A stretch of 64,000 nt of DNA from Comamonadaceae bacterium (lineage in GTDB: Bacteria; Pseudomonadota; Gammaproteobacteria; Burkholderiales; Burkholderiaceae_C), in the NCBI GenBank assembly GCA_947447355.1, contig CANFJF010000002.1, forward strand, positions 1 to 64,000, given 5' to 3'. This document shows positions 1-34,657 of this stretch, in pieces. The position numbers and the translations under genes are program-made. The notes under the pieces are model-generated. The model worked only from the letters and a program-made list of their open reading frames with translations, was not told where the DNA came from and made no database searches. Each line of letters begins with the position of its first letter. The first letter of the stretch is position 1.

Positions 1-1827
1 AATGGCATCACCAACAGCACGCTGCTGTCCATGCTCAGCGTGGATGCAACGCCGGTCATCGGCAATACGGCCACCACCGGCACGATCCACTGGGCGTTCA
101 ACTCCAACAGCCAGGCGTTCAACCACCTGGCGGCGGGTCAGACCTTGGTGCTGAGCTACACCGTGCGCGCCACTGATAGCAGCGTCAGCCCCGTCAGTGC
201 CGACAAAACCGTCAGCATCACCATCACCGGCACCAACGATGCGCCGCTGATCACGCTGGGTGCCGGCAACAGCGATGCTGCTGCTTTGACCGAAACCAAC
301 TCGGGGCTGAACACAGCAGGCACGCTGTCGGTGACAGATCTGGATGTCACCAACACTGTCTCAAGCTCGGTGGTGTCGGTGGCCAGCACCGGTGCCACCA
401 ATGGCATCTCCAACAGCACGCTGCTGTCCATGCTCAGCGTGGATGCAACGCCGGTCATCGGCAACACCGCCACCACCGGCACGATCCACTGGGCGTTCAA
501 CTCCAACGGTCAGGCGTTCAACTATCTGGCCGAAGGGCAGACTCTGGTGCTGACGTACATCGTGCGCGCCACCGACAGCAACGTCAGCGCAGCCAGCGCC
601 GACAAAACCGTCAACATCACCATCACCGGCACCAACGATGCACCGCTGATCACACTGGGTGCGGGCAACCGAGATGCCGCGACGCTGACCGAAACCAATG
701 CAGGCCTGAGCACGTCAGGCACGCTGTCGGTGACGGATCTGGATGTCACCAACACCGTCTCAACCAGGGTGGTGTCTGTGGCCAGCACCGGTGTCACCAA
801 TGGCATCGCCAACGGCACGCTGCTGTCCATGCTCAGCGTGGATGCAACGCCGGTCATCGACAACACCGCCACCACCGGCACGATCCACTGGGCGTTCAAC
901 TCCAGCAGCCAGGCATTCAACCACCTGGCCGCGGGACAGACCCTGGTGCTGACGTACACCGTGCGCGCCACCGACAGCAACGCCAGCGCAGCCAGCGCCG
1001 ACAAGACCGTCAGCATCACCATCACCGGCACCAACGATGCACCGCTGATCACGCTGGGTGCGGGCAACAGCGATGCGGCTGCGTTGACCGAAACCAATGC
1101 AGGCTTGACCAGTTCAGGCACGCTGTCGGTGACGGATCTGGATATCACTAACACCGTCTCAACCAGGGTGGTGTCTGTGACCAGCACCGGTGTCACGAAT
1201 GGCATCACCAACAGCACGCTGCTGTCCATGCTCAGCGTGGATGCAACGCCGGTCATCGGCAATACGGCCACCACCGGCACGATCCACTGGGCGTTTAACT
1301 CCAACACTCAGGCGTTCAACCACTTGGCTGCGGGTCAGACCTTGGTCCTGACCTACACCGTGCGCGCCACCGACAGCAGCGCCAGCCCCGCCAGCGCCGA
1401 CAAAACCGTCAGCATCACCATCACCGGCACCAACGATGCGCCGCTGATCTCGCTGGGCGCCGGCAACAGCGACGCTGCGACGCTGATGACAACCAAAGCA
1501 GGTCTGAGCAAGTCAGGCACGCTGTCGGTGACGGATCTGGATGTCTCCAACACGGTCTCAACCAGAGTGGTCTCTGTGGCCAGCACCGGTGCCACGAATG
1601 GCATCTCCAATAGCGCGCTGCTGTCCATGCTCCGTGTGGATGCAACGCCGGTCATCAGCAACACCGCCACCACCGGCACGATCAACTGGGCGTTCAACTC
1701 CAACACCCAAGCGTTCAACTACCTGGCCGCGGGGCAGACCCTGGTGCTGACGTACACCGTACGCGCCACCGACAGCAGCGCCAGCGCAGGCAGCGCCGAC
1801 AAAACTGTCACCATCACCATCACTGGC
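1..1827 (+). repeat. 399-bp (133-aa) in-frame tandem repeat; unit starts at 31, 430, 829, 1228 and 1627 (last copy partial)
   Basis: ATGCTCAGCGTGGATGCAACGCCGGTCATC (variant in last copy) recurs at exact 399-bp spacing. Confidence 0.95.
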
Positions 1828-1935
1828 GCCGGCGGCAGGGCTGTGCCGCTCATAGCGCTGTCCCCTAGCAGCGAGCCTTCCATGTTGGACCCGAGCGTCG
1901 TGGGTACGGGTGCAAGTGCGAGAAAGAAATCTTGA
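1..1935 (+). CDS. 3' end of giant VCBS-type repeat surface/adhesin-like protein (5' truncated by window edge)
   Basis: Open frame from base 1; repeated 133-aa units with ...SADKTVSITITGTNDAPLI... and GTLSVTDLDVTNTV signatures typical of VCBS repeats; stop at 1933-1935. Confidence 0.85.
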   Translation, partial: NGITNSTLLSMLSVDATPVIGNTATTGTIHWAFNSNSQAFNHLAAGQTLVLSYTVRATDSSVSPVSADKTVSITITGTNDAPLITLGAGNSDAAALTETNSGLNTAGTLSVTDLDVTNTVSSSVVSVASTGATNGISNSTLLSMLSVDATPVIGNTATTGTIHWAFNSNGQAFNYLAEGQTLVLTYIVRATDSNVSAASADKTVNITITGTNDAPLITLGAGNRDAATLTETNAGLSTSGTLSVTDLDVTNTVSTRVVSVASTGVTNGIANGTLLSMLSVDATPVIDNTATTGTIHWAFNSSSQAFNHLAAGQTLVLTYTVRATDSNASAASADKTVSITITGTNDAPLITLGAGNSDAAALTETNAGLTSSGTLSVTDLDITNTVSTRVVSVTSTGVTNGITNSTLLSMLSVDATPVIGNTATTGTIHWAFNSNTQAFNHLAAGQTLVLTYTVRATDSSASPASADKTVSITITGTNDAPLISLGAGNSDAATLMTTKAGLSKSGTLSVTDLDVSNTVSTRVVSVASTGATNGISNSALLSMLRVDATPVISNTATTGTINWAFNSNTQAFNYLAAGQTLVLTYTVRATDSSASAGSADKTVTITITGAGGRAVPLIALSPSSEPSMLDPSVVGTGASARKKS

Positions 1936-2053
1936 ACATGAACACTGCGCAATTGTTCAGTGAGGAGAGGCACAAGTACTGTGAGACTTCTCTCTCCGTA
2001 AGGCTGGTGTCACGCGACGATGAGGGTCGCGAGGTCTCTGCAGTGTTTCTTGG

Positions 2054-3463
2054 ATGAACACACTGATGCACGCAAATTTTCCCGGGAGACACGAGGTCAC
2101 TGCAAAGGCTTTGAACGCACTGCTCGACCTCTCCCAGCAGTCTCGCCAGGCCGCCGACCTGTCGGAGCTCGGCTTTCTGGCCGTCAACGGCACTCACACC
2201 CTTGCGCCTTATCGGCAGGGTGCATTATGGTTAGCCGAGGACGGCGTTAAGACCTTGTCAGGTGTCGTACAGCTCGAAGCGAATGCGCCCTACGCCCAAT
2301 GGCTTGATCGGGTCTGTCGAAGTGTGTCGCTAGACAACAATCCGCATCCCAGCCAGTTGGGTGCAGCACAACTGCCACGGGACTTGGCGCTGGAGTGGGA
2401 CACCTGGCTGCCCAGCTACGGCCTTTGGTTGCCCATCCCTCTGGATGTCGCGGGTGATCAAGACGCCATGCTGCTGGGTGGCTTGCTGTTGGCCCGCGAC
2501 ACGCCCTGGCAAGAGCAGGAAGTAGCTCTGCTGGCGGAGTGGTTGAAAATTTGGACATTCGCTTGGAACGCCGGCCACCGTCCGACAACTTGGTCTTGGC
2601 GTCGCTGGCTGCAACTCGTCCGCGATGAATGGCGCGGCCGTCAGGATCTGGTCTGGTGGAAGCGGCGACGTGTGCTCTGGGCCCTAGGGTTTGCCGTGAT
2701 TCTTCTCTTACCCGTGCGGCTCACCGTATTGGCGCCGGGAGAGTTGGTGCCTGCTCATCCTGCTGTGATCCGGTCACCATTTGACGGCGTGGTCGGCAGT
2801 TTTTCGGTTAAACCTAACCAAGTTGTCAGGGTTGGCCAACCGCTTTTTAACTTTGACGATGCCTCACTGAAGAGCAAGCTCGAAGTCGCCCGGCAGGCCC
2901 TCTCTGGTGCCCAAGCGGAATATCGTCAGTCAGCCCAACTGGCCGTCACCGACATTAAATACAAAGGCCAACTGGCCCTGCTCATGGGTAAGGTTGAGGA
3001 ACGCCAAGCTGAAGCCGATTATTTGAAGGGGCAATTGGAGCGGGCACATATCCTTGCACCGCAAGACGGAATCGCCTTGTTTGATGATCCCAGTGAATGG
3101 GTTGGCAAGCCTGTCGCTACCGGGGAGCGGATCATGCGCATTGCAGCACCGGGCGATGTCGAAGTCGAAGCCTGGCTGGCAGTTGGCGACGCGGTGCCGC
3201 TGCCCGTTGATGCTCCGGTGAGCCTGTATCTCAATTCCAGCCCTTTGTTCACGGTGGACGCACAGGTACGCTATGTGGCCCATGATGCGGTGCAGCGTCC
3301 CGATGGCAGCTACGCCTACCGGGTGCGAGCCAGTCTGGAGCACCCAACCGAGCACAGGGTCGGACTGAAGGGCACGGCCAAACTCAACGGCAGTTCTGTG
3401 CCGATGGTGTACTGGGTGCTGCGCCGCCCGATAGCTGCCATTCGTCAGATGATTGGCTGGTAA
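2054..3463 (+). CDS. HlyD-like periplasmic adaptor with N-terminal GAF-like cytosolic region and one TM segment
   Basis: TM RRVLWALGFAVILLLPVRLTVLAPGELVPAHPAVIRSPFDGVVGSFSVKPNQVVRVGQPLFNFDD plus coiled-coil and barrel regions typical of HlyD adaptors. Confidence 0.8.
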   Translation: MNTLMHANFPGRHEVTAKALNALLDLSQQSRQAADLSELGFLAVNGTHTLAPYRQGALWLAEDGVKTLSGVVQLEANAPYAQWLDRVCRSVSLDNNPHPSQLGAAQLPRDLALEWDTWLPSYGLWLPIPLDVAGDQDAMLLGGLLLARDTPWQEQEVALLAEWLKIWTFAWNAGHRPTTWSWRRWLQLVRDEWRGRQDLVWWKRRRVLWALGFAVILLLPVRLTVLAPGELVPAHPAVIRSPFDGVVGSFSVKPNQVVRVGQPLFNFDDASLKSKLEVARQALSGAQAEYRQSAQLAVTDIKYKGQLALLMGKVEERQAEADYLKGQLERAHILAPQDGIALFDDPSEWVGKPVATGERIMRIAAPGDVEVEAWLAVGDAVPLPVDAPVSLYLNSSPLFTVDAQVRYVAHDAVQRPDGSYAYRVRASLEHPTEHRVGLKGTAKLNGSSVPMVYWVLRRPIAAIRQMIGW

Positions 3464-3468
3464 AAAGA

Positions 3469-5598
3469 ATGCTGCCCCCGCTGCGAGAAGAACTCGTCCT
3501 GTACTGCGGACCTCATCTGGCCGATGGGCAGCCCACTTGGACCTTGCATGATCCGGTGCGCCATCAGTTTTTTCGGATTGATTGGCTGACGTTTGAAATC
3601 ATCAGTCGTTGGGCTATGGATGATTTGCAAGTCATCGCAGATGGCATCAATGCCGACACCGCCTTGCGACCCGATGTGAAGGATGTCGATGCTGTTCACC
3701 ATTTCTTGTGCGGGAACCAATTGGTCAAGCCCACCGCGGTGGGTAGTGCGCGGCAGTTCTCGGATCGTCTGCGCCGAATGCGTGGTGATTGGAAAACCTG
3801 GCTGTTGCACCATTACTTGTTTTTTCGGATTCCCCTGATTCGCCCAGATGGTTGGCTGGAACGATGGCAGGGCTGGGTGGCACCCTTTTACAGCCGCGGC
3901 TTTGCCCTGTTGACGCTGGCCGCACTGGCTGTTGGCTTGGTTGAGCTTTATCGGGATTGGGGTCGGTTTTCAGCCACCTTGTTGGATACCTTTTCCTGGA
4001 GTGGCCTCGTGGGATATGGGGCGGCCCTGATCGGCATCAAAGTGATGCATGAACTCGGCCATGCCTTTACCGCCAAACGTTTCGGCTGTCGGGTCCCCGC
4101 GATGGGGGTGGCCTTTCTGGTGATGTTCCCGGTCGCGTACACCGACACCAATGAGGTGTGGAAACTGGCCCAACGGAAACAACGACTGGCGGTGGCGGCG
4201 GCGGGGGTCGCGACAGAGTTGGTCATTGCTGCCTGGGCGACCTTGGCCTGGGGTTTGCTGCCGGAGGGCATTCCCAAATCCATCGCCTTCATGCTGGCCA
4301 CAACCACCCTGGTTGCAACCCTGGTCATCAACACCAGTCCCTTCATGCGCTTTGACGGTTATTTCTTGATGTCGGACTGGCTTGATATCCCGAATTTACA
4401 CAACAGAGCCTTTGCCTTGGCGCGCTGGGACATGCGTGAACGTTTGTTCGGTCTTGGCTTACCTGCGCCGGAGCACTTTCCGCGACATCGGAAAACCGGA
4501 CTGATTTTGTTTGCCTACGCCACATGGATTTACCGGCTGGTGGTGTTTTTGGGGATTGCCGCGCTGGTCTACACCTTTTTTATCAAAGCGCTGGGGATTC
4601 TGCTTTTTATGGTGGAAATCGGTTGGTTTGTACTGCTGCCATTTTGGAACGAGGTCAAACTCTGGCCGGCCTTGTTGGCAAAAGAGGGGCAGTCCCCTAG
4701 CCTCTTGGCGCTGCTGAGCCACGGCCCAAGGGTGCGGCGCAGTGCCTGGCTGGCGGTTGTCCTGATGCTCCTGTTTGTTGTTCCCTGGCCGACGCGGCAA
4801 GCGGCGTCTGGCATGTTGAAACCTGCGGACATCTTTCCGATTTATGCGCCTGCTGGCGCGCAAGTTGTGAGCTTGCCGATAACCGACGGCCGGGCTGTTG
4901 AAGAAGGCGCCATCCTGTTGGAGTTGACCTCACCAGAGTTGCAACTTCGCTGGCGGCGCGCTCAGGCGCGCCTGGAAGGCTTGCGCTGGCAGGCGAGGTC
5001 GGCTGGCGTCAGCACAGAGCAGCGTCACAACCTGAAAGTGTTTGCGCAGGAGGAGCAAACGGCACAAGCTGAACTGTCCAGCGTTCAAGCAGAAATGGCT
5101 TTATACGTGCCTGCGGCACCCTTTGCTGGAATTTTTCGTGACTTGCAGCCGGATCTAAAACCGGGGCAGTGGGTGGGTAACCGGGAGCGCTTGGGTGTAT
5201 TGGTTAAAACGGATCGCTGGCAAGTGGAAACCTATCTGGACGAAGAGTCTGTCAATCGAATCAAGGAAGGCGATCAGGCACGCTTTTTCACCGATGGCCT
5301 AGAGGGTCCGGTTCTCAGTTTGGTCGTGAGCGCGATTGACCAGGATGCTGCCCGGGTGTTGCCCAATGCGCAATTGGCATCCCAAGTCGGCGGCTCGATC
5401 ATGACGCGAGAAAAGCATGGGCAACTTGTGCCCGAGCGGGCGGTGTACCGCGTGACGCTGAGTGTTGAAGACAATGTGGGTGAGTTAGCTCAGCAAAGCT
5501 GGCGCGGCCGTGTGGTGATTCAGGGACGCTGGGAGGCGCCGGGGCTGGCGTTTTTACGCTCGGCGTTGGTGCTGGTTTGGAGAGAGTTGGGTTTTTAA
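3469..5598 (+). CDS. Peptidase M50 (site-2-protease-like) membrane protein with C-terminal HlyD/lipoyl-like region
   Basis: HELGHAFTAKRFG (HExxH) and NTSPFMRFDGYFLMSDW motifs, multiple TM segments, C-terminal APAGAQVVSLPITDGRAVEEGAILLELTSPEL. Confidence 0.85.
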   Translation: MLPPLREELVLYCGPHLADGQPTWTLHDPVRHQFFRIDWLTFEIISRWAMDDLQVIADGINADTALRPDVKDVDAVHHFLCGNQLVKPTAVGSARQFSDRLRRMRGDWKTWLLHHYLFFRIPLIRPDGWLERWQGWVAPFYSRGFALLTLAALAVGLVELYRDWGRFSATLLDTFSWSGLVGYGAALIGIKVMHELGHAFTAKRFGCRVPAMGVAFLVMFPVAYTDTNEVWKLAQRKQRLAVAAAGVATELVIAAWATLAWGLLPEGIPKSIAFMLATTTLVATLVINTSPFMRFDGYFLMSDWLDIPNLHNRAFALARWDMRERLFGLGLPAPEHFPRHRKTGLILFAYATWIYRLVVFLGIAALVYTFFIKALGILLFMVEIGWFVLLPFWNEVKLWPALLAKEGQSPSLLALLSHGPRVRRSAWLAVVLMLLFVVPWPTRQAASGMLKPADIFPIYAPAGAQVVSLPITDGRAVEEGAILLELTSPELQLRWRRAQARLEGLRWQARSAGVSTEQRHNLKVFAQEEQTAQAELSSVQAEMALYVPAAPFAGIFRDLQPDLKPGQWVGNRERLGVLVKTDRWQVETYLDEESVNRIKEGDQARFFTDGLEGPVLSLVVSAIDQDAARVLPNAQLASQVGGSIMTREKHGQLVPERAVYRVTLSVEDNVGELAQQSWRGRVVIQGRWEAPGLAFLRSALVLVWRELGF

Positions 5599-5607
5599 GT
5601 TGGCGCT

Positions 5608-5627
5608 TCGGCGGGGGTGTCCGCCGA
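5608..5627. terminator. Possible stem-loop between convergent genes
   Basis: TCGGCGG-GGGTGT-CCGCCGA perfect 7-bp stem; no clear T-tract. Confidence 0.35.
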
Positions 5628-5651
5628 GCCCCGAGTCTTTGAGAGTAGGTT

Positions 5652-6503
5652 TCACGCCTCGTCGCGAATCCCATTGCGCAGAATGCCGATGGCGTCGACT
5701 TCGATTTCCACCACATCGCCAGGCTTCATGAAGACCTGGGGGACGCGTTTGTTGCCCACGCCACCGGGCGTGCCGGTGACGATGACGTCACCCGCTTCCA
5801 GGGGAATGAAGGTGGAGATGTAGGCGATCTGGCGCGGAATGCTGTGGATCATCATGGCCGTGGTGGCGGTCTGCATGACTTGGCCGTTGAGGCGGGTGGT
5901 CAGCGTCATCAATTGATCCGGCTTGATCTCGTCGGCCGTCACCATCCAGGGGCCAAAACCGCCGGTGCGAAAGAAGTTTTTGCCTGCCGTCCACTGCGTG
6001 GTGGCGGCCTGCCAGTCGCGGATGCTGCCGTCGTTGTAGCAACTGTAGCCAGCGATGTGGCTCCAGGAGTCGGCCTCACTGATGCGGCGACCGCCTTTGC
6101 CGATGACGACAGCAATCTCACCTTCGTAGTCCAGACGTTGCGATTCTGGCGGACGCACGATGTCTTGGCCGTGCGCGACTTGCGACTCAGTCATGCGTAA
6201 AAAGAGCGCCGGGCTCTCGGTGAGTTCGCGCCCCGTTTCGCGCACATGCTCGCCGTAGTTCAGGCCGACGCAAATGATTTTGTTGGGGTTGGTGATGACG
6301 GGCAAGAGCGTGAGTTGCGAGAACTTCAGCGTCGCCGGATGGGTTTTGGCGGCGGCCGCATCAGCGCTCAGCAGGTCAAGCGCGATCAAGGCTTTCAGGT
6401 CTGGCGCTTGCGTGCCGAAGATGGGTGTCAGGTCTAGAACGTCGTCACCGTTGACGATGCCGTAAGAAGGGATGCCTTGATTTAGAAAGCTGATGAGTTT
6501 CAT
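5652..6503 (-). CDS. Fumarylacetoacetate hydrolase (FAH) family protein
   Basis: IICVGLNYGEHVRETG..., DYEGEIAVVIGKGGRRI, GDVIVTGTPGGVG motifs. Confidence 0.9.
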   Translation of the reverse strand: MKLISFLNQGIPSYGIVNGDDVLDLTPIFGTQAPDLKALIALDLLSADAAAAKTHPATLKFSQLTLLPVITNPNKIICVGLNYGEHVRETGRELTESPALFLRMTESQVAHGQDIVRPPESQRLDYEGEIAVVIGKGGRRISEADSWSHIAGYSCYNDGSIRDWQAATTQWTAGKNFFRTGGFGPWMVTADEIKPDQLMTLTTRLNGQVMQTATTAMMIHSIPRQIAYISTFIPLEAGDVIVTGTPGGVGNKRVPQVFMKPGDVVEIEVDAIGILRNGIRDEA

Positions 6504-6574
6504 GGTGAGAGTCCTTTGAAGTGAAGATAAAAAAGAAAAGGTTGAGTCAGGAAAATCAGGAATGCTGGGAAAAT

Positions 6575-7327
6575 TTAGGGTGTGCGCGACGTGATGTCTT
6601 GCGCCGCGCGCGACAGCATTTGCGTCAGCTTAGGCAGATCAATCACGGCCATGCGCGAGACGCTGCTGACCAGCGAAATGGCACCCAGAATGCTGCCATC
6701 CGCGCGTTGCAGCGGCGCGGCGAGGGCGGCGAGATTGGGTTCAAGTTCGCCGTTCGAAAAATAGTGACCGGCTTTGCGGATGGCGGCGAAGTACTTGCGG
6801 AATTCACGCCAGTCGGTTGGCAGGCCGGCTTGGACAATGTCGCTTTGATGGTCGTCGAAAATTTTGTGCAGCTGGGCGGGCGTGAAGCAAGACAGGATGA
6901 CCTTTGGCGCAGCACCTAAAAACAGCGGACGGGGCCGGCCACGTCCGTAACTTAGCTTGGCAGGCATGCTGCCAAACTCGCGGTGGGTGTCCAGAACCTG
7001 TTGACCGTAGAGCCCCGACATCACGCAGTCGAGGCCGGTTTGCTCGACCAGTTCGGCCATGAAGGGCACACCATGTTGCAGCACCGGATCGGCCATACGG
7101 ATGTAATGGTCCAGCACGATGATGCGCGGCCCCAGCGTGTAGTGCGAATCGACCACACGCTGCAGCAAGCCAGCGTCGACAAGCATCTTCACGTAGCGGT
7201 AGCCGGTGGGCAGTGAGACCTTGAGTGCCTCGGTGATGCTCTCGGCCGTCCAACTCAGTTGGTCGTCGGTGAACAGGTCCAGCACACTCAACATGCGCGA
7301 CAGGCTGGACGTTGATTTGTCGTTCAT
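6575..7327 (-). CDS. IclR-family transcriptional regulator
   Basis: N-terminal HTH and IclR effector-binding layout (GLDCVMSGLYGQQVLDTHR...). Confidence 0.85.
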   Translation of the reverse strand: MNDKSTSSLSRMLSVLDLFTDDQLSWTAESITEALKVSLPTGYRYVKMLVDAGLLQRVVDSHYTLGPRIIVLDHYIRMADPVLQHGVPFMAELVEQTGLDCVMSGLYGQQVLDTHREFGSMPAKLSYGRGRPRPLFLGAAPKVILSCFTPAQLHKIFDDHQSDIVQAGLPTDWREFRKYFAAIRKAGHYFSNGELEPNLAALAAPLQRADGSILGAISLVSSVSRMAVIDLPKLTQMLSRAAQDITSRTP

Positions 7328-7336
7328 GGGCTCAGG

Positions 7337-8830
7337 TCAATGGGGTTGGAGGGCCGTTGCGCACAAGCAGGCCGTGACAGCATCCAAGTCTTCAGACGTG
7401 CGAGCCGTGCCCATGATGTAGCGGTCGGGTCTGAGCATGATCGCAGCAAAACCATGCTCGTCCAGCCAGCTGAGCAGGGCCGGGTCTTGCGTCGGCATGA
7501 TCAGCACGTCCGTTTCGCGCCAGACTTGCTGCGTTTCTTCACTCACGCCGCTCAGCACGTGGGCACGACCGATCACTGCAAAGTGATTGCCGAGATGCTC
7601 GTCGAGCAGGCGGCCGTCAGCCAGCACGGGCTGCGGAAACGGTTGACCCACCGGGGCCTTGTTTCCATGCAAGACGCCGGCGCCCAGGCAGGGCGACGGA
7701 AATTCAAAAATTTCGGGCTGGCCAGCCTTGAAGTGCGCGTCGCGTTCGCGCGCCTTGTCGGGGTCGGTGGCCTGGATGATGTCGCCCAGCTTGACCGCCA
7801 GTTCAATGAAGGCATGGACGTGTGGTGAGCGTTCCGACTCGTAGGTGTCAAGCAGCGCTTCGCTGGCGCGGCCACGCAGCACGGCCTCCAGTTTCCACGC
7901 TAAGTTGGCAACGTCGCGCAGGGCCGCGCACATGCCTTGGCCGAGGAAGGGCGGCGTCTGGTGCGCTGAGTCGCCAGCCAGCAACAGGCGGTCTTTGCGC
8001 CAGCCTTCAGCGATGACCGAGTGGAAGGTGTAAATCACAGCGCGCTCGATGTCGGCGTGTTCTGGCTTCATCCAGCGGCTGACCAATGTCCACAGGGTCT
8101 CCGGCTGGACCAATACGGCCGGGTCATCGCCCGGCATGAGCATGATCTCCCAACGCCTGCGGTTCTCCGTGACGTTGCACCAAGTCATGGGGCGGGCCGG
8201 GTCGCAGTACTGAACTGTGTGATCGGGCAGGGCGGGCGCATGGCTTTTGAGCAGCACGTCAAAGACCAGCCAAGGCTGGTGCAGACCCAGGTCTTTCATG
8301 GGGCTGCCGATCACTTTGCGGACCAGCGAGCGGGCGCCATCGCAGCCAACCACGTAGCGGGCTTGCACTTCTGTGGCTTGCCCGGTGCGCGCGTCGGTCA
8401 CGCTCAAGTTGACGTGGTCAGCCTGTGGCGTGATGTCGGTGACTTCGTGCTGCAAGCGGACGTCGACGTTGCCAAAGTGCGACACGCCGTCGCGCAGCAC
8501 TTGCTCCAGTTGGGGCTGGTGGAAGTAATAGTTGCTGGCGCAGCCGTGCGGGCCTTGGTGCGCCGTGCCGCCGCGGGTCAGCAGGGTGTCACCCTTGGCG
8601 TTGACGAACTGCATGCCTTTGAGCCCGGCACGGGAGATCGTTTCGACGGCCTGACGCAGGCCCACCGATTGAAAAATCCGCATGACCTCACCGTCAAAAT
8701 GAATCGCGCGTGGCAGCGGATAAATGACGGCTTCTTTTTCAAGCACGAGGGTGGACAGGCCGGCTTGGCCTAGCAGATTGGCCAGCGTGGCCCCCGCCGG
8801 GCCATAGCCAATGATGGCGACATCGAACAT
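7337..8830 (-). CDS. FAD-dependent aromatic monooxygenase, MhpA-like (3-(3-hydroxyphenyl)propionate hydroxylase-like)
   Basis: FDVAIIGYGPAGATLANLLGQAGLSTLVLEK (GxGxxG), VGCDGARSLVR, LLLAGDSAHQTPPFLGQGMCAALRDVANLAWKLE. Confidence 0.88.
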   Translation of the reverse strand: MFDVAIIGYGPAGATLANLLGQAGLSTLVLEKEAVIYPLPRAIHFDGEVMRIFQSVGLRQAVETISRAGLKGMQFVNAKGDTLLTRGGTAHQGPHGCASNYYFHQPQLEQVLRDGVSHFGNVDVRLQHEVTDITPQADHVNLSVTDARTGQATEVQARYVVGCDGARSLVRKVIGSPMKDLGLHQPWLVFDVLLKSHAPALPDHTVQYCDPARPMTWCNVTENRRRWEIMLMPGDDPAVLVQPETLWTLVSRWMKPEHADIERAVIYTFHSVIAEGWRKDRLLLAGDSAHQTPPFLGQGMCAALRDVANLAWKLEAVLRGRASEALLDTYESERSPHVHAFIELAVKLGDIIQATDPDKARERDAHFKAGQPEIFEFPSPCLGAGVLHGNKAPVGQPFPQPVLADGRLLDEHLGNHFAVIGRAHVLSGVSEETQQVWRETDVLIMPTQDPALLSWLDEHGFAAIMLRPDRYIMGTARTSEDLDAVTACLCATALQPH

Positions 8831-8833
8831 GGC

Positions 8834-9409
8834 TCAGGCTTCCTCGTTGTAGCCCATGCGGCGCGCCATCTCGGCTTGCCATACAGAACGCAATTGGAAC
8901 CTAGGCCGGCTGCGGGCAATGGTTTCTGCGCGCGCCCAAATCACGTCGTCGGGCTGGTCCAGGTCGATGGCTTCGCGCAAGGGTTGCTCGCAATACCACG
9001 GAGAGTCGATGAAGACTTCCAGCCGGTTGCCTTCGGGGTCACGGAAATAAATGGACACAGCATTGCCGTGGGTGGCGCAGAGCAACTCGGTGACATCGGC
9101 ATCGGCGGCGACGCGATCGCGCATCATTCGCAGCGTGGCCAGATCAGGCACCCGCAGCGAGATTTGGTTGATGACGTTGAAGCTCAGATCTGCCGGCCGG
9201 CCCGTTGCCAGCACGATCTGGTGGTGCTCCGACGGGTCGCGGCTGAGAAACACCAGTTGTACCGTGCCCAAGTCGCCCCGATCCGTTTCGGTGAAGCACA
9301 TCACGTCTTGGTAAAAGCGCGCCATGCGCTCAAGGTCGCGCACATAAAAGCCCATGTGGCTGAAGACCAGTGCGTCGCGCTGGCGCAAGCTGCGTGTAGG
9401 TTGTGTCAT
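8834..9409 (-). CDS. VOC/glyoxalase-fold protein, candidate single-domain extradiol-type dioxygenase
   Basis: HMGFYVRDLERMARFYQDVMCF..., HHQIVLATGR, YFRDPEGNRLEVFIDSPW. Confidence 0.8.
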   Translation of the reverse strand: MTQPTRSLRQRDALVFSHMGFYVRDLERMARFYQDVMCFTETDRGDLGTVQLVFLSRDPSEHHQIVLATGRPADLSFNVINQISLRVPDLATLRMMRDRVAADADVTELLCATHGNAVSIYFRDPEGNRLEVFIDSPWYCEQPLREAIDLDQPDDVIWARAETIARSRPRFQLRSVWQAEMARRMGYNEEA

Positions 9410-9468
9410 GGGATTTCCAGTTGGTTTTAATGAAAACTGAACGGATTATGCCGTCTTGATTTCTATAA

Positions 9469-9519
9469 ATTATGCGTCAATTCTTATAATTTGACAATTT
9501 GATTAATTTATCTAAGAAT
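9469..9519. promoter_or_regulatory. Divergent promoter region with embedded dyad (GTCAA-N10-TTGAC at 9476-9495)
   Basis: Plus: TTGACA 9491-9496 with TAAGAA 9513-9518; minus: TTGTCA (9497-9492), N17, CATAAT (9474-9469). Confidence 0.5.
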
Positions 9520-9579
9520 GCGATGCGGGCAATTCTGATCCATTGCCAAGCCAATTTCACCCCCTCTGGAGACACCACA

Positions 9580-10572
9580 ATGAGCAGATTCAATCCATTC
9601 CATCGACGCGCTTGCCTGGCGGCAATCAGCCTCGCCTTTTTGGCCGTGACAGGCGCTGCAGCCGTTCATGCGCAAAGTTATCCGACCAAGCCGATCCGGC
9701 TGGTGGCACCGTTTCCAGCAGGTTCCGGTCCAGATGCCAATGCCCGAGAAATCGCCGCAGAACTCACCAAAATTCTGGGCCAGACGGTGATCGTGGAAAA
9801 CCGCCCCGGCGCTTCGTCCATCATCGGCACCGATGTCGTGGCCAAGGCAGTTCCGGACGGTTACACGCTGCTCGTGGGGACCACCACGTCAATGTCGGTG
9901 TTGCAGCACATGTATGCCAAGCTGCCGTTCAATGCGGAGCGGGATTTCGCGCCTATCAGTTTGCTGGGCTTGCTCAACACGGGTCTGATTGCCCACCCCG
10001 GGACTTCATTCAAGACGGTGCAAGAGCTCATCGCTCAAGCCAAGGCGCAGCCCGACGCTGTGAACGTGGCCACGCAGGGCATTGGCAGCTATTCACATTT
10101 GTCAGGTGAGTGGTTTGGTGCGGGTTCCGGGACCAAACTCAAATTTGTGCCTTACAACACCAGCAGCCCTTACAGCGACCTGCTGGCCGGGCAGATGAAC
10201 ATCATGTTCGATGGTTTGCCGGCCGCTGCGGGCAATATTCGCGCGGGCAAGCTCAAACTGTTAGCGATCACGGGCAAATCCCGTCACCCCGCCTTTCCGG
10301 ATGTGCCCACTTTTGCAGAGGCGGGCTTGCCGGATTACGCGCCCTTGGCATGGCAAGGTTTGCTGGCACCTGCAGGAACACCGGCAGCGATTTTGGAAAA
10401 ACTCAGCGCCGCCATGCAGAAGGCGACCCAGAACCCTGTGCTGGCTGAAAAATGGCGTCAATATGGTGGCGAACTCAAGGCCACGACACCCGCTGAGTTT
10501 GCGGCTTTCATCAAGGCCGACTCTGCCAAGTGGGGGCAGGTGGTCCGCCAAGCTGGCGTCAAGCTCGATTGA
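9580..10572 (+). CDS. TTT-family (Bug) periplasmic solute receptor
   Basis: Signal peptide then AQSYPTKPIRLVAPFPAGSGPDANAREIA; ATG at 9580 preceded by CTGGAGA; in frame with longer ORF from 9499. Confidence 0.9.
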   Translation: MSRFNPFHRRACLAAISLAFLAVTGAAAVHAQSYPTKPIRLVAPFPAGSGPDANAREIAAELTKILGQTVIVENRPGASSIIGTDVVAKAVPDGYTLLVGTTTSMSVLQHMYAKLPFNAERDFAPISLLGLLNTGLIAHPGTSFKTVQELIAQAKAQPDAVNVATQGIGSYSHLSGEWFGAGSGTKLKFVPYNTSSPYSDLLAGQMNIMFDGLPAAAGNIRAGKLKLLAITGKSRHPAFPDVPTFAEAGLPDYAPLAWQGLLAPAGTPAAILEKLSAAMQKATQNPVLAEKWRQYGGELKATTPAEFAAFIKADSAKWGQVVRQAGVKLD

Positions 10573-10659
10573 TGTTGTGCGCGCCGGCTCAGGGTTAAAC
10601 GCTATGGAATCCGGGTGAGGTTGAAACAACAATGACGCAAAGATGGAGGAGATTTCAAG

Positions 10660-11673
10660 GTGTTTAAAAAATTCCTGATGGTGCGCGCTCATGTCATGAG
10701 CGCTGGCCTTGGCTTGGCCGTGTTAGCCGGCATCGCGGCGGCTTTGACCGGTTACGCAGCGCCAGCGGCTGCACAAGACGGCTACCCGAACAAACCGATT
10801 CGCATTTTGCTGGGCTTCGCACCTGGTGGGGGCAGCGACGTGGTGGCGCGACTGATTGCCAAGTCACTGGGAGAGCGTTTCGGCCAAACTGTCATGGTGG
10901 ACAACAAACCCGGCGCGGGCGGCAACATTGCGGCGGACATGGCCGCGAAGGCGGCGCCTGATGGCTACACACTGGTCTTGTTGCCGAGCGGCCACGCCAG
11001 CAATGCCGCCATGAAAAAGTCGCTGCCGTTTGACCCGGTCAACGACTTCGCTTGGGTCTCGACCATCACCACCTACCCGCTGGCGCTGTCAGTCAAGCCC
11101 GATTCGCCGATTCGCTCGTTTCAAGATTTCATGTTGCGCACCAAGGCCGAACCGGGGCGCTACACCTACACCTCGGTGGGCGTCGGCACCGCCATGCACC
11201 TGGTGGGTGAATGGATCATGGCGGAAAGCGGTGGCACGGCCGTGCACGTTCCCTTCAAGGGCGGCAGCGCACCGTTGACCGAACTGCTGGCCGGCCGTGT
11301 CGATGTGATGATCGACACCATGACCAGCACCGCGCCCTTGCTGAAGGACAAGCGCTTGCGCGGCTTGGCCGTCACATCGCCCAAAGGACAGAGCAACATG
11401 TTTGGCGTGCCCAACGTGGCCGACACGTACCCGACGTTGGTGTTTGAGTCTTGGCTTGGCATTGCAGCGCCGCCTGGCACACCGCCAGCCATCGTGGTCA
11501 GACTACAGCGCGAACTCAAAGCCGTGATTGAGTCACCCGAGGTCAAACAAAAACTGACTGACTGGGGCGGTCAACCGCAGGCCAGCACGCCAGCCGAGTT
11601 CAAGGCGCGGGTTGAGAAAGACATCCAGAGCCTGCGCCGGGTGGTGGCTGACAGGCGTATTGAACTCGAGTGA
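10660..11673 (+). CDS. TTT-family (Bug) periplasmic solute receptor
   Basis: DGYPNKPIRILLGFAPGGGSDVVARLIAKSLGERFGQTVMVDNKPGAGGNIAAD; GTG start, GGAGGAGA upstream. Confidence 0.9.
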   Translation: MFKKFLMVRAHVMSAGLGLAVLAGIAAALTGYAAPAAAQDGYPNKPIRILLGFAPGGGSDVVARLIAKSLGERFGQTVMVDNKPGAGGNIAADMAAKAAPDGYTLVLLPSGHASNAAMKKSLPFDPVNDFAWVSTITTYPLALSVKPDSPIRSFQDFMLRTKAEPGRYTYTSVGVGTAMHLVGEWIMAESGGTAVHVPFKGGSAPLTELLAGRVDVMIDTMTSTAPLLKDKRLRGLAVTSPKGQSNMFGVPNVADTYPTLVFESWLGIAAPPGTPPAIVVRLQRELKAVIESPEVKQKLTDWGGQPQASTPAEFKARVEKDIQSLRRVVADRRIELE

Positions 11674-11830
11674 TGGCGCATAAGCTGATGTGAAATGGAC
11701 TGGTCTCTTTTAGATCTTTCGCCATAGCACCGCCGATACGGCCCCCGACCAGTTTGCGAGGTTGTCTAGTGATGAGTCTTATCGCGTCAATATTGACCTG
11801 TGGAATCTTTGCATGCAAAATTGCACGCAT

Positions 11831-13060
11831 ATGTCCAAATCATTTTCAACCTCCCCAAACAGCCCTAACGCCCCAAAGGCGATGATTCGCAGTGGCGAAG
11901 ACTCACCGTCTCTCAGCGACGAACAAATTGAAGACGCTCGAAAACTCATCGGTGTCTGGCTGCGGCGTGACGTGCACACGCCCTCCATCTATGAGCCCTT
12001 GTCGGTCCACGACATTCGCCGCTGGTCGCATTACAGCGTAGGGGATGACAACCCGCTTTTTTCAGAAGTCGACTATGCCAAGCGAAGCACATGGGGCACG
12101 GTGATTGCACCGCCGACTTTTTTGTACACCATTGACACCGGCATCGTGGCCCCGGGCATGCCTGGGATCCAGTGGATATTTGCCGGTTCGCGGTTTGAGC
12201 ACTTTATGCCGGTCAAAGCCGGTGACACCATCACCGCCCGCGCCCGTTTGATCGATGTTCAGATCAAGGAAGGCCGCAACATTGCGCGCTATGTCAACCA
12301 AGTCGGCGAGGTGCTTTACACCAATCAAAACGGGCAGCTCGTCACCCGCTACGAGGGTGACATTTACCGCGTTCCGCGCAAACGCAGTGGCGGTGGCTTC
12401 AAATTTGCGCTGAAAGAAAAAGAAGCACCACCGCCACCATATCGTTACACCGACGCAGAAATTGACGCCATTGCAGACGGCTACCGCAACGAATTCCGGC
12501 GCGGCAGTGACAGCTTGTATTGGGAAGACGTCAACCTGGGCGACACCTTGCCGGTGGTGCAAAAAGGCCCACTCACCTTGGTCGACATCGTTGGTTTTTA
12601 CTCCGGCAGGCGTACCGTCTACAACGTTATGAAGTTGGCGTTTGCCGACCGAGACAAGCACCCCAGCAACGTCTATTACTCACCGGCACGCAACATCCCC
12701 ATGCACCCGGCAGCGGGCCACTTTGACGTTGAAATTGCACATGAAATTGGCATGCCAGCGGCCTATGACCAAGGCTGGCAACGCATCGGCTGGGCGGGTC
12801 ACATGCTGACCAACTGGTGTGGCGACCGTGGCTTTGTGCGCCGCCTTGATGGCCGCGTGACCAAGCCCAATTTAATCGGTGACCTGACCAAGCTGACCGG
12901 CGAAGTCGTTGCCAAACGCAAAACCGAGGCCCTCAACGGCATGCCCGCAGAGTCGCTGATTGACATTCGCTGGTGGGGTGAAAACCAACGCGGGGAACGC
13001 AACTGCAGCGGCGAAGCCACCGTCCGACTCCCTTCCCGCGACATCAGCCTGCGTTGCTAA
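11831..13060 (+). CDS. MaoC-like (R)-hydratase / FAS1-like dehydratase (tandem hot-dog)
   Basis: SHYSVGDDNPLFSEVDYAKRSTWGTVIAPPTFLYTID; ORF extends upstream to 11762, start assignment uncertain. Confidence 0.75.
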   Translation: MSKSFSTSPNSPNAPKAMIRSGEDSPSLSDEQIEDARKLIGVWLRRDVHTPSIYEPLSVHDIRRWSHYSVGDDNPLFSEVDYAKRSTWGTVIAPPTFLYTIDTGIVAPGMPGIQWIFAGSRFEHFMPVKAGDTITARARLIDVQIKEGRNIARYVNQVGEVLYTNQNGQLVTRYEGDIYRVPRKRSGGGFKFALKEKEAPPPPYRYTDAEIDAIADGYRNEFRRGSDSLYWEDVNLGDTLPVVQKGPLTLVDIVGFYSGRRTVYNVMKLAFADRDKHPSNVYYSPARNIPMHPAAGHFDVEIAHEIGMPAAYDQGWQRIGWAGHMLTNWCGDRGFVRRLDGRVTKPNLIGDLTKLTGEVVAKRKTEALNGMPAESLIDIRWWGENQRGERNCSGEATVRLPSRDISLRC

Positions 13061-32404: not shown

Positions 32405-32860
32405 CTAGCGGTAACGGCGCTGTAGAAATTCAGCCACACAGACCGGCTTGGCCTCACCCTCCCGCTCCACACTCATCTCCCAGTTCAGCTGCACGCCATC
32501 GCCGGCGACTTCTTCGCACGTCAGCAACTTGATGCGGCAACGCAGGCGGCTGTTCACGGGCACCGGCGCAGGAAAGCGCACCTTGTTGAGTCCGTAGTTC
32601 ACGCCCATCCGCGTCTTCTCAATGCGAATCAGTGAGGCATACATTTTGGGCAAAAGGGAGAGCGTTAAAAAACCGTGGGCGATGGTTGAGCCGTAAGGCC
32701 CTTCTTTCGCGCGCACCGGGTCCACATGGATCCACTGGTGGTCGCCAGTCGCTTCGGCAAACAAGTTGATCTGTTCCTGCGTGACCTGTATCCAGTCGCT
32801 CACGCCGAGGTCTTGACCCACGACCGGTTTTAGGTCGTCTAGGGTTGCAAATATTTTCAT
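32405..32860 (-). CDS. MaoC-family (R)-specific enoyl-CoA hydratase
   Basis: Start MKIFATLDDLKPVVGQDLGVSDWIQVTQEQINLFAEATGDHQWIHVDPVRAKEGPYGSTIAHGFLTLSL. Confidence 0.92.
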   Translation of the reverse strand: MKIFATLDDLKPVVGQDLGVSDWIQVTQEQINLFAEATGDHQWIHVDPVRAKEGPYGSTIAHGFLTLSLLPKMYASLIRIEKTRMGVNYGLNKVRFPAPVPVNSRLRCRIKLLTCEEVAGDGVQLNWEMSVEREGEAKPVCVAEFLQRRYR

Positions 32861-33870
32861 GTTTTGATCCTGTTTGAATTCATGGTGACGACAACTTTGC
32901 CCAATGCGCGGCGTCCAGACAGTTGTGCCAAGGCTTCGTTGGCTTGCTCGAGTGGAAATCTCTGTGAAATAAACGGCCGGATGTGGCCGGCGGCATACAG
33001 CTTGAACAGGTCTTGCGCGCTTTCTGCAAAAAGCTGCGGCTCGCGTCCGATCCATTCGCCCAAGCTGACCCCCACCACCTGGCATCCCTTGAGCAGCACG
33101 AGGTTGAGTGGTAACCGTGGGATGCCCGCTGGAAAGCCGACCACCAGAAAGCGCCCCTCCCAAGCGGTGGCGCGCAGGCAGGGCTCGGCAATGTCGCCGC
33201 CTACCACGTCGAGCACCACATTCGCGCCGTTCGGACCCACGACATCTTTGATGGAAGCGGCCAGGGCGCGCGACGCATCGCGGCTCAGCTCGCCGACCGG
33301 ATACACCCACCCGGCATCTGCACCATGGCGCAACGCGAAGTCAAGCTTGTCCGATGATGAGACTGCCACGACCACGCGTGCCCCCCAGGCTTTGCCGAGT
33401 TGGATGGCCGCAAGGCCCACCCCTCCGGCGGCCCCGGTCACCAGCAGCGTGTCGCCCGTACTGAGGTGGCCACGATGGCGCAAGGCATAGTAGGCGGTGC
33501 CGTAGGTTAACAACAGTGCGGCACCCTCGTCCATCGGCATGCCCGCCGGCATGTGGACGCATTGGTTGACGTTCAGCACCAAACTTTGCGACAAGCCGCC
33601 AAAGAGCGCGCGGCCCAACACGGCATCATCGAGCTTGAACCCCTGCACCCCAGGGCCGATGGCGTCTACATGTCCCGCAACCTCACCACCGGGCGCAAAG
33701 GGGCGCGATGGCTTGAACTGGTAACGGTCGTCCAGCAGCAGCGTATCCGGAAAGTTGATGCCGCATGCCGCCACTCGGACCCGAACCTGCCCCGGGCCTG
33801 GTTCGGCTGGCGTGATGTTGCGCACGACCAAAGGTTGGCCGGAAACTTCACTGAGGGCTGCCTTAGTCAT
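32857..33870 (-). CDS. NADPH:quinone oxidoreductase-like MDR protein
   Basis: VRVRVAACGINFPDTLLLDDRYQ, LLVTGAAGGVGLAAIQLGKAWGARVV. Confidence 0.9.
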   Translation of the reverse strand: MTKAALSEVSGQPLVVRNITPAEPGPGQVRVRVAACGINFPDTLLLDDRYQFKPSRPFAPGGEVAGHVDAIGPGVQGFKLDDAVLGRALFGGLSQSLVLNVNQCVHMPAGMPMDEGAALLLTYGTAYYALRHRGHLSTGDTLLVTGAAGGVGLAAIQLGKAWGARVVVAVSSSDKLDFALRHGADAGWVYPVGELSRDASRALAASIKDVVGPNGANVVLDVVGGDIAEPCLRATAWEGRFLVVGFPAGIPRLPLNLVLLKGCQVVGVSLGEWIGREPQLFAESAQDLFKLYAAGHIRPFISQRFPLEQANEALAQLSGRRALGKVVVTMNSNRIKT

Positions 33871-33895
33871 GCGTATTTTTTCATGCGTATTTTTT
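33868..33895. repeat. Perfect 14-bp tandem duplication (CATGCGTATTTTTT x2)
   Basis: 33868-33881 and 33882-33895 identical; overlaps start codon of the MDR gene. Confidence 0.9.
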
Positions 33896-33907
33896 AATAT
33901 GTCTGTT

Positions 33908-34657
33908 TCACCCGACCATCGTCAGGCCGCCGCTCACACTCAAGACCTGCCCGGTGACGTAGTCTGCGTTCGGCCCGATCAGGTAGCGAACGGCCTGCGC
34001 CACATCAGCAGGTTGCCCGAGGCGGCGAAGTGGAATCGCGCTGAGCAGCGCCTCCCGGAGTCCTTCGGAGGCTTGCGCATTAAACAGCGGTGTGTCGGTC
34101 GGTCCCGGGCAGACGCAATTCACGTTGATCTGGTAGCGCGCCATTTCGCGGGCAAGCGACTTGGTGAAGGCTATCAGGCCACCCTTGGTCGCCGCGTACG
34201 CCGTCTCACCCATGCTGCCGACACGCCCGGCATCACTGGAAATATTGACAATCTTGCCAGCCTTCGCCTCGATCATCGACGGCAGCACCAGTTGCGTGAG
34301 GCGCATCGCACCCAGCAAATTGACAGCCACGAGTCGCTCCCACAGCTCAGGATCGTTCTTGATAAAAGGGCCAACCTTGTCAAAGCCCGCAGCATTCACC
34401 AAACCATCAACCCGGCCATGAAGGCTCAGAACTTTGGCCGCGAAGGCCTTCACCGAATCGGCCGAAGCCAGATCCAGTTGTGTCGCAGTGATCTCGCCTT
34501 GTCCACCGGGATGCTCTTGAATCGTCCGCTCTGCACCAGCCATGTCCAGATCGCCAATGTGCACGGTTGCGCCTTGCGATGCCAACACCTGGACCGTGGC
34601 CTTGCCGATGCCAGAGGCGCCCCCGGTGACAACGATGATTTTGTCTTTCAATTCCAT
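33908..34657 (-). CDS. SDR-family oxidoreductase
   Basis: MELKDKIIVVTGGASGIGKATVQVLA; YAATKGGLIAFTKSLA. Confidence 0.92.
   Translation of the reverse strand: MELKDKIIVVTGGASGIGKATVQVLASQGATVHIGDLDMAGAERTIQEHPGGQGEITATQLDLASADSVKAFAAKVLSLHGRVDGLVNAAGFDKVGPFIKNDPELWERLVAVNLLGAMRLTQLVLPSMIEAKAGKIVNISSDAGRVGSMGETAYAATKGGLIAFTKSLAREMARYQINVNCVCPGPTDTPLFNAQASEGLREALLSAIPLRRLGQPADVAQAVRYLIGPNADYVTGQVLSVSGGLTMVG

Follow-up and report, generated by a model that had tools for sequence, protein, structure and literature searches.

Giant adhesins of Gram-negative bacteria, which shape biofilms and host contact, are assumed to leave the cell through type I systems driven by an ATP-binding cassette (ABC) exporter or through autotransporter-like routes. 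Among type I systems, LapA/LapBCE and SiiE/SiiCDF are the closest described counterparts of the genes analyzed here, which lie at the left end of a 64,000-nt stretch of DNA (the window; contig CANFJF010000002.1, positions 1 to 64,000, from the Comamonadaceae bacterium assembly GCA_947447355.1). These genes encode the end of a giant VCBS repeat protein, a HlyD-type adaptor with a GAF-like N terminus, and a fusion (M50-HlyD) of a RiPP (ribosomally synthesized and posttranslationally modified peptide) recognition element (RRE), an M50 protease, and a second HlyD-type adaptor. The cassette to which they belong shares with LapA/LapBCE and SiiE/SiiCDF a giant, adhesin-like repeat substrate (VCBS, Ig-like), a TolC-type channel, and HlyD-type adaptors, all in one operon. 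Unlike those systems, it has no ABC exporter, its giants carry a conserved N-terminal motif, and its adaptors number three, one fused to the RRE-M50 portion and one to the GAF-like domain. Where LapA has an N-terminal retention module with a LapG cleavage site, giants of related cassettes begin instead with a leader motif. We propose, with moderate confidence, that this cassette is an export and processing system for giant surface proteins in which the RRE docks the leader, the M50 site cuts it, and SecA supplies the power.

An earlier note on this DNA had read a VCBS giant, a HlyD adaptor, and an M50-HlyD protein in this order on one strand, and all three open reading frames are where it had placed them. 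The features are as follows.

Positions 1 to 1935, plus strand: 3' end of the giant gene, open at contig base 1, with five VCBS stretches (NCBIfam E value of 1.3e-39).
Positions 1953 to 2048, plus strand: relic, after the giant's stop codon and in another frame, of a domain (LSVRLVSRDDEGREVSAVF) that is conserved at the C terminus of related giants.
Positions 2054 to 3463, plus strand: GAF-like/HlyD adaptor, 469 amino acids (aa) (HlyD_3, 2.8e-21).
Positions 3469 to 5598, plus strand: RRE-M50-HlyD fusion, 709 aa (HlyD_3, 1.1e-12; Peptidase_M50 [PF02163], 1.7e-9).

The adaptor and fusion genes are both intact and are separated by 5 bases; the next gene begins at position 5652 on the opposite strand. 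Base 1 of the window is also base 1 of its contig, which thus begins inside the giant gene, so the upstream side had to be read from relatives.

When named genomes were scanned with aligned fusion sequences, at least 320 relatives and 80 loci were retrieved. Among the matches listed, these loci span Burkholderiales, Methylophilaceae, Chromobacteriaceae, Enterobacterales, Pseudomonas, and Methylococcaceae, together with Azospirillum, Nitrospira, Geobacteraceae, Desulfobulbaceae, and one Pelagibacteraceae single cell. Across the 80 named loci and further genomes, the recurrent cassette comprises a giant, a TolC/OEP channel, a short HlyD protein with an apparent signal peptide, the GAF-HlyD adaptor, and M50-HlyD; it was found at no fewer than about 100 loci in beta-, gamma-, and alphaproteobacteria, Nitrospirota, and Desulfobacterota and on Escherichia coli plasmids. 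HlyD_3 matches both intact window proteins, the third, short HlyD being seen in relatives, and the TolC-type channel, recurrent among relatives, is exemplified by the cassette of genome G039 (OEP, PF02321, 5e-33). In the window's nearest relatives that show their upstream side, L061 (Variovorax sp. N23) and L069 (and partly L055), the genes run TolC, short HlyD, giant, GAF-HlyD, M50-HlyD. The window genes match the right half of this cassette, and its TolC gene, short HlyD, and leader motif are predicted to lie beyond the contig edge. The cassette occurs as one unit on E. coli plasmids and chromosomes and also on Azospirillum plasmids. Among 5,426 E. coli genomes, 24 had a match, which in 22 covered most of the query; of the 25 places concerned, 21 were plasmid borne. 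One E. coli plasmid and one Azospirillum plasmid that had been annotated independently likewise show a giant, TolC, two adaptors, and M50-HlyD but lack an ABC gene.

Linkage of the gene pair to giant proteins, which the earlier note had made a test of its reading, proved to be strongly conserved. Of 276 genomes belonging to the window's class, 41 had M50-HlyD, 34 had DUF4347 giants, and 26 had both; M50-HlyD thus accompanied DUF4347 giants in 26 of 34 genomes compared with 15 of the 242 others (Fisher P = 3e-19, with related genomes counted as independent in this test and those below). The partner giants, of 2,000 to 10,000 aa, are conserved as partners across cassettes. Two loci are recorded as observations in their own right. 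E. coli plasmid NZ_CP081687 (L135/L180, positions 44829 to 64580) carries a complete cassette with a 4,459-aa giant starting LESRQLFDGA; cassettes of this type occur on E. coli and Citrobacter plasmids and adjoin a malT-like regulator and insertion sequence elements. A typical betaproteobacterial cassette also appeared on a contig titled as an Akkermansia muciniphila metagenome-assembled genome (L064, CALPVM020000056.1), which is probably a binning error.

As the earlier note had observed, no ABC exporter lies downstream, here in the examined stretch from 1 to 12000 of the window. That note had also reasoned that a complete LapBC/TolC-like set just upstream would undercut its reading. Among relatives whose upstream side is visible, a TolC-type channel and the third, short HlyD are indeed present, but no ABC exporter, LapB type or other, lies within the cassettes, and the ABC transporter genes around these loci are scattered outside them. 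Alternatively, an ordinary type I system could draw on an ABC exporter encoded elsewhere, with M50-HlyD merely processing the substrate. The TolC and HlyD parts are type I-like, unlinked parts are stated for some RTX systems, in Legionella (PMC7730722), and the window genome (G000) carries two LssB-type exporters on other contigs.

Contig C27, positions 32669 to 34564: LssB-type exporter (L209), in an operon with HlyD and its own 1,737-aa candidate substrate.
Contig C130, positions 3320 to 5392: LssB-type exporter (L208), the second LssB system of this genome.

The C27 operon, however, is furnished with its own adaptor and candidate substrate. Moreover, among 31 M50-HlyD genomes, all scored at least 90% complete, 23 yielded nothing that passed the curated cutoff for a HlyB, LssB, or PrtD exporter; the positive eight carried HlyB (G107, G110, and G131), LssB (G000, G047, and G292), or PrtD (G039 and G224). 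Six more genomes had subthreshold full-length matches, and about half of the 31 remain exporter free when these are counted. Plasmids carry the cassette between E. coli strains without an ABC gene, and the motif common to the giants is N terminal, whereas classical type I signals are C terminal. The inner-membrane motor that defines type I secretion is absent from the cassettes and, at the curated cutoff, from most of these genomes, and we consider an exporter supplied from elsewhere quite unlikely.

The earlier note had taken the fusion for a protease joined to an adaptor; both parts are there, but that description left out an N-terminal RRE fold.

Positions 3469 to 3738, plus strand (aa 1 to 90): RRE/PqqD-like domain, predicted to bind the leader, beta-beta-beta-alpha-alpha-alpha.
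Positions 4048 to 4062, plus strand (aa 194 to 198): HExxH zinc protease motif HELGH, conserved in 47 homologues.
Positions 4330 to 4359, plus strand (aa 288 to 297): second site-2 protease active-site motif, NTSPFMRFDG (NxxPFMRFDG) with Asp296, assigned by conservation.
Positions 4786 to 5595, plus strand (aa 440 to 709): C-terminal membrane fusion protein (MFP; MacA/AcrA-like) adaptor domain, assigned by Foldseek against the PDB.

The PF02163 match, the HExxH motif with its downstream Asp motif, and a helical model place the central portion among the M50 (site-2) proteases. H194, E195, and H198, like the key positions of the second motif, are invariant in the 47 homologues, and N288, P291, and D296 are invariant in both protease clades described below. 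An AlphaFold (AF2) model of the whole window fusion had a mean pLDDT (predicted local distance difference test score) of 90, and the best PDB matches of residues 440 to 709 were the MFPs Spr0693, MacA, and AcrA (E of ~1e-13). The RRE was suspected from the sequence pattern ahead of the structure model. When the PDB was searched by sequence with the N-terminal domain, all matches were at chance level, and a fold comparison was needed. The first 82 residues were modeled as three strands and three helices (pLDDT, 94.6), the winged-helix fold of RREs, and Foldseek comparison with 350,542 PDB chains placed lasso peptide B1 proteins (TbiB1 and another), solved with leader peptides, in the top six positions (E of 1.6e-3 to 7.5e-3, probability of 1.00, TM score of 0.62 to 0.66); the next match was the RRE-bearing enzyme CteB. 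Pfam PqqD gave subthreshold matches in 2 of 43 members of the window's clade (best, 0.011), and in the sister clade L047 and L158 exceeded the cutoff and some members are labeled "PqqD family" in PLSDB. The RRE fold points to recognition of the giant's N-terminal motif by the fusion. In contrast with PqqD, lasso peptide B1 proteins, and CteB, this domain lies outside a RiPP pathway, and its putative leader, LExRxMFDGA, sits on proteins of 1,000 to 10,000 aa.

The protease is sequence related to the membrane M50 proteases of RiPP systems (EpeP/YydH and the daptide HExxH protease), with which it shares leader-peptide logic (NCBIfam daptide_HExxH, 1.2e-42; YydH/LiaK, 4e-9). Its nearest functional precedent is EpeP, which is thought to cleave and also export its peptide (PMC10885120). 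Daptides and epipeptides mature by the same logic of an RRE combined with an M50 protease (PMC10885120), and one could imagine that M50 frees a small signaling or antimicrobial peptide from the N terminus of the giant for export through HlyD and TolC, the body of the giant being incidental. We regard this as very improbable: no modification enzymes were seen in the cassettes, the publicly annotated ones included; the residues flanking the motif vary; and giants are the conserved partners. The fusion also differs from the RiPP proteases in being joined to an RRE and an MFP, in having a giant rather than a small modified peptide as its partner, and in its association with a TolC channel.

Every complete giant N terminus readable beside cassettes of the window's clade (clade 1) bears LExRxMFDGA or a close variant, ~10 to 80 residues from the predicted start. 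The leader stretch is weakly hydrophobic and is thus not an ordinary Sec signal. The motif was present in 15 of 16 readable DUF4347 proteins of M50-HlyD genomes (one call, L192 with LEPRFLFDVA, was made by eye) and in 2 of 8 from genomes without M50-HlyD (Fisher P = 0.0013). In those eight control genomes, four giants had Sec-type signals, two had neither mark, and two had the LExR motif, the latter sitting on short or edge contigs. DUF4347 itself was considered as an export mark and rejected, given that where M50-HlyD is absent from the genome, most of its bearers show a Sec-type signal or no motif. A DUF4347 protein of Burkholderia thailandensis, BTH_II1339, is among the proteins most raised in stationary phase (PMC12322963).

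The tree of M50-HlyD proteins separated ~100 rows, including the window, from a sister set of ~29 rows, and the motif of the giants follows this division. Sister-clade giants carry LExRLLLSAD, which is the LEPR-XLL domain (NCBIfam NF012209). Giants linked to window-clade cassettes were of the FDGA type rather than the LLSAD type by 31 to 1, whereas those of the sister clade stood at 0 to 8; the single exception, L041, comes from a genome carrying both machines. Unlinked giants of the same genomes had the motif type fitting the clade in 13 of 13 assignable cases, and the combined one-per-genome Fisher test gave P = 6e-13 (no phylogenetic correction). A machine that reads the motif would be expected to give such a pattern. 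A second difference is the gene for a SecA paralogue, which adjoins M50-HlyD in 22 sister-set rows and in 0 of 100 window-clade rows. These paralogues (571 to 728 aa) keep the Walker A and DEAD motifs and score 340 to 480 bits, compared with curated SecA/SecA2 cutoffs of 725 or more. Like SecA2 of accessory Sec systems, they have ATPase motifs and stand beside large surface proteins; they differ in being low scoring, shorter, Gram negative, and linked to M50-HlyD and TolC. A sister-clade cassette on Mesorhizobium ciceri plasmid NZ_CP088148 (L178/L181, positions 16982 to 55951) has a 31.5-kb giant gene, whose product of about 10,500 aa starts LEPRLLLSAD, and a SecA-like neighbor annotated as a DEAD/DEAH helicase.

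The adaptor preceding the fusion has a single hydrophobic segment above threshold, at residues ~207 to 225, and its N-terminal ~200 aa are therefore likely cytosolic. Its predicted layout is a cytosolic N-terminal portion of ~200 aa, a transmembrane segment at residues 207 to 225, and a periplasmic HlyD/MFP domain. The earlier note had called the N terminus GAF-like and cytosolic; the hydrophobicity profile agrees with the location, and GAF was matched by 4 of 45 adaptor homologues (best, 2.4e-6) but not, in Pfam, by the window protein.

In the mechanism that we propose, the giant would be made with a short N-terminal LExRxMFDGA leader, as seen in relatives, and no Sec signal peptide. The cytosolic RRE of the fusion would bind this leader, in keeping with the fold and with the correlation between motif and clade, and the intramembrane M50 site, whose active-site residues are intact, would cut it during membrane entry. 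SecA would then push the chain over the inner membrane; the sister clade would use its dedicated paralogue for this, and the window clade probably housekeeping SecA/SecYEG. Through their adaptor domains, M50-HlyD, GAF-HlyD, and the short HlyD, linked components of one cassette, would assemble with the TolC channel into a conduit to the surface, where the conserved C-terminal tail of the giant may be the last, retained part; more speculatively, the GAF-like domain could gate the machine upon binding of a small ligand. Leader recognition by the fusion is well supported; we infer the binding step itself, cleavage, the energy source, conduit assembly, export, and surface display. The earlier suggestion of a noncanonical export or processing route with M50-HlyD in the place of the ABC exporter gains comparative support from these data. 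The likely motor is the SecA paralogue, directly seen in the sister clade only, so M50 probably does not stand in for the exporter as a source of energy.

A giant that crossed the inner membrane by another route might instead be only trimmed or tethered at the surface by an RRE-M50-HlyD/TolC complex. An intact M50 active site would serve such a role, adaptors could act as anchors, and the C terminus of some partner giants, mostly of the sister clade, is a conserved hydrophobic stretch (SxGxVxWLLRxGxLxxSLLSxxPxWxxxDPL; L047:2268-11234, L035:2296-15372, L112, L132, and L162) that could be an anchor kept in the inner membrane. We nevertheless judge this explanation unlikely. Giants of clade 1 cassettes have no Sec-type signal peptide, so the other route would itself need explaining; a TolC channel with three adaptors exceeds the needs of tethering; and sister-clade cassettes encode a translocation motor.

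Several observations weigh against export and processing by the cassette as we propose it. Clade 1 has no dedicated motor; a dedicated SecA was sought in the window genome, and only the housekeeping SecA was found. The two LssB-type exporters of that genome count here as well, as does the weak hydrophobicity of the leader, which is unlike classical intramembrane protease substrates. The Foldseek E value of the RRE is modest (1.6e-3), Pfam PqqD stays below its cutoff in the window clade, and the Fisher tests treat related genomes as independent. A LEPR motif or giant N terminus, DUF4347, and the TolC partner were searched for and not found in the window genome, whose assembly is incomplete; the missing left half is likely an assembly gap. 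Finally, the C terminus of the window giant is broken.

This last point bears on the window copy in particular. In giants of its clade, the C terminus often consists of a small conserved domain followed by a tail, G(R/K)xSLxxQLxxA, found in 30 of 50 by a strict pattern and in more by eye, and the usual form GRxSLxxQLRxA is missing from the window giant. When the C termini of relatives were compared by tblastn with all 64 kb of the window, the top three matches across all queries mapped to positions 1953 to 2048 (best E, 8e-5), the out-of-frame relic listed above. Either the gene is decaying, or it was rearranged, or the metagenome assembly is in error at this place. With its C-terminal tail being lost, the window copy may be nonfunctional or may serve another substrate. 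Lacking the tail of its family, it is a poor model locus, and the candidacy of its VCBS protein as a clean substrate is weakened by the relic. The VCBS repeats themselves are tandem units of 399 bp (133 aa), ~89% identical, and a genome-wide repeat check found them confined to the window's contig.

The cassette has neither the ABC exporter that defines type I secretion nor the small peptides and modification enzymes of RiPP pathways; it is built from known modules, and its function is predicted. The earlier note had named it as its best candidate for an underdescribed system, and searches of open-access full texts on the parts, their combinations, and RRE plus M50 turned up no description of the system. 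Neither M50 nor HlyD is mentioned in the main text of a 2025 mSystems paper on RRE discovery, and an ordinary PrtD-type ABC gene is part of the Methylomicrobium S-layer system. We put at an even chance the broader claim of an undescribed class of Gram-negative export machine, in which an RRE-guided protease-adaptor replaces the ABC exporter, with two clades, FDGA and LLSAD leader dialects, and a SecA motor. The gene set, which has no ABC motor, is widespread: it occurs in bacteria from the environment, in species associated with plants, and on mobile plasmids of E. coli, and it pairs with giants a leader-reading domain hitherto tied to small-peptide antibiotics. LEPR-XLL and PF07595 are named domains only, with no export machine link found in the open-access literature; orphan LEPR-XLL and DUF4347 proteins are here offered a function-level hypothesis, with a receptor-leader pair predicted for each clade.

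Two further observations concern the surroundings of the cassettes. SapC family (PF07277) genes recur beside them, mostly in the sister clade (L041:907-1635, L051:12430-13308, L138, L156, L158, and L172). The N-terminal region of the giant at L041 (positions 1 to 881) matched LEPR-XLL in NCBIfam and had a weak match to PF07595, the Planctomycete extracellular motif, a similarity that may mean that the system extends to Planctomycetes.

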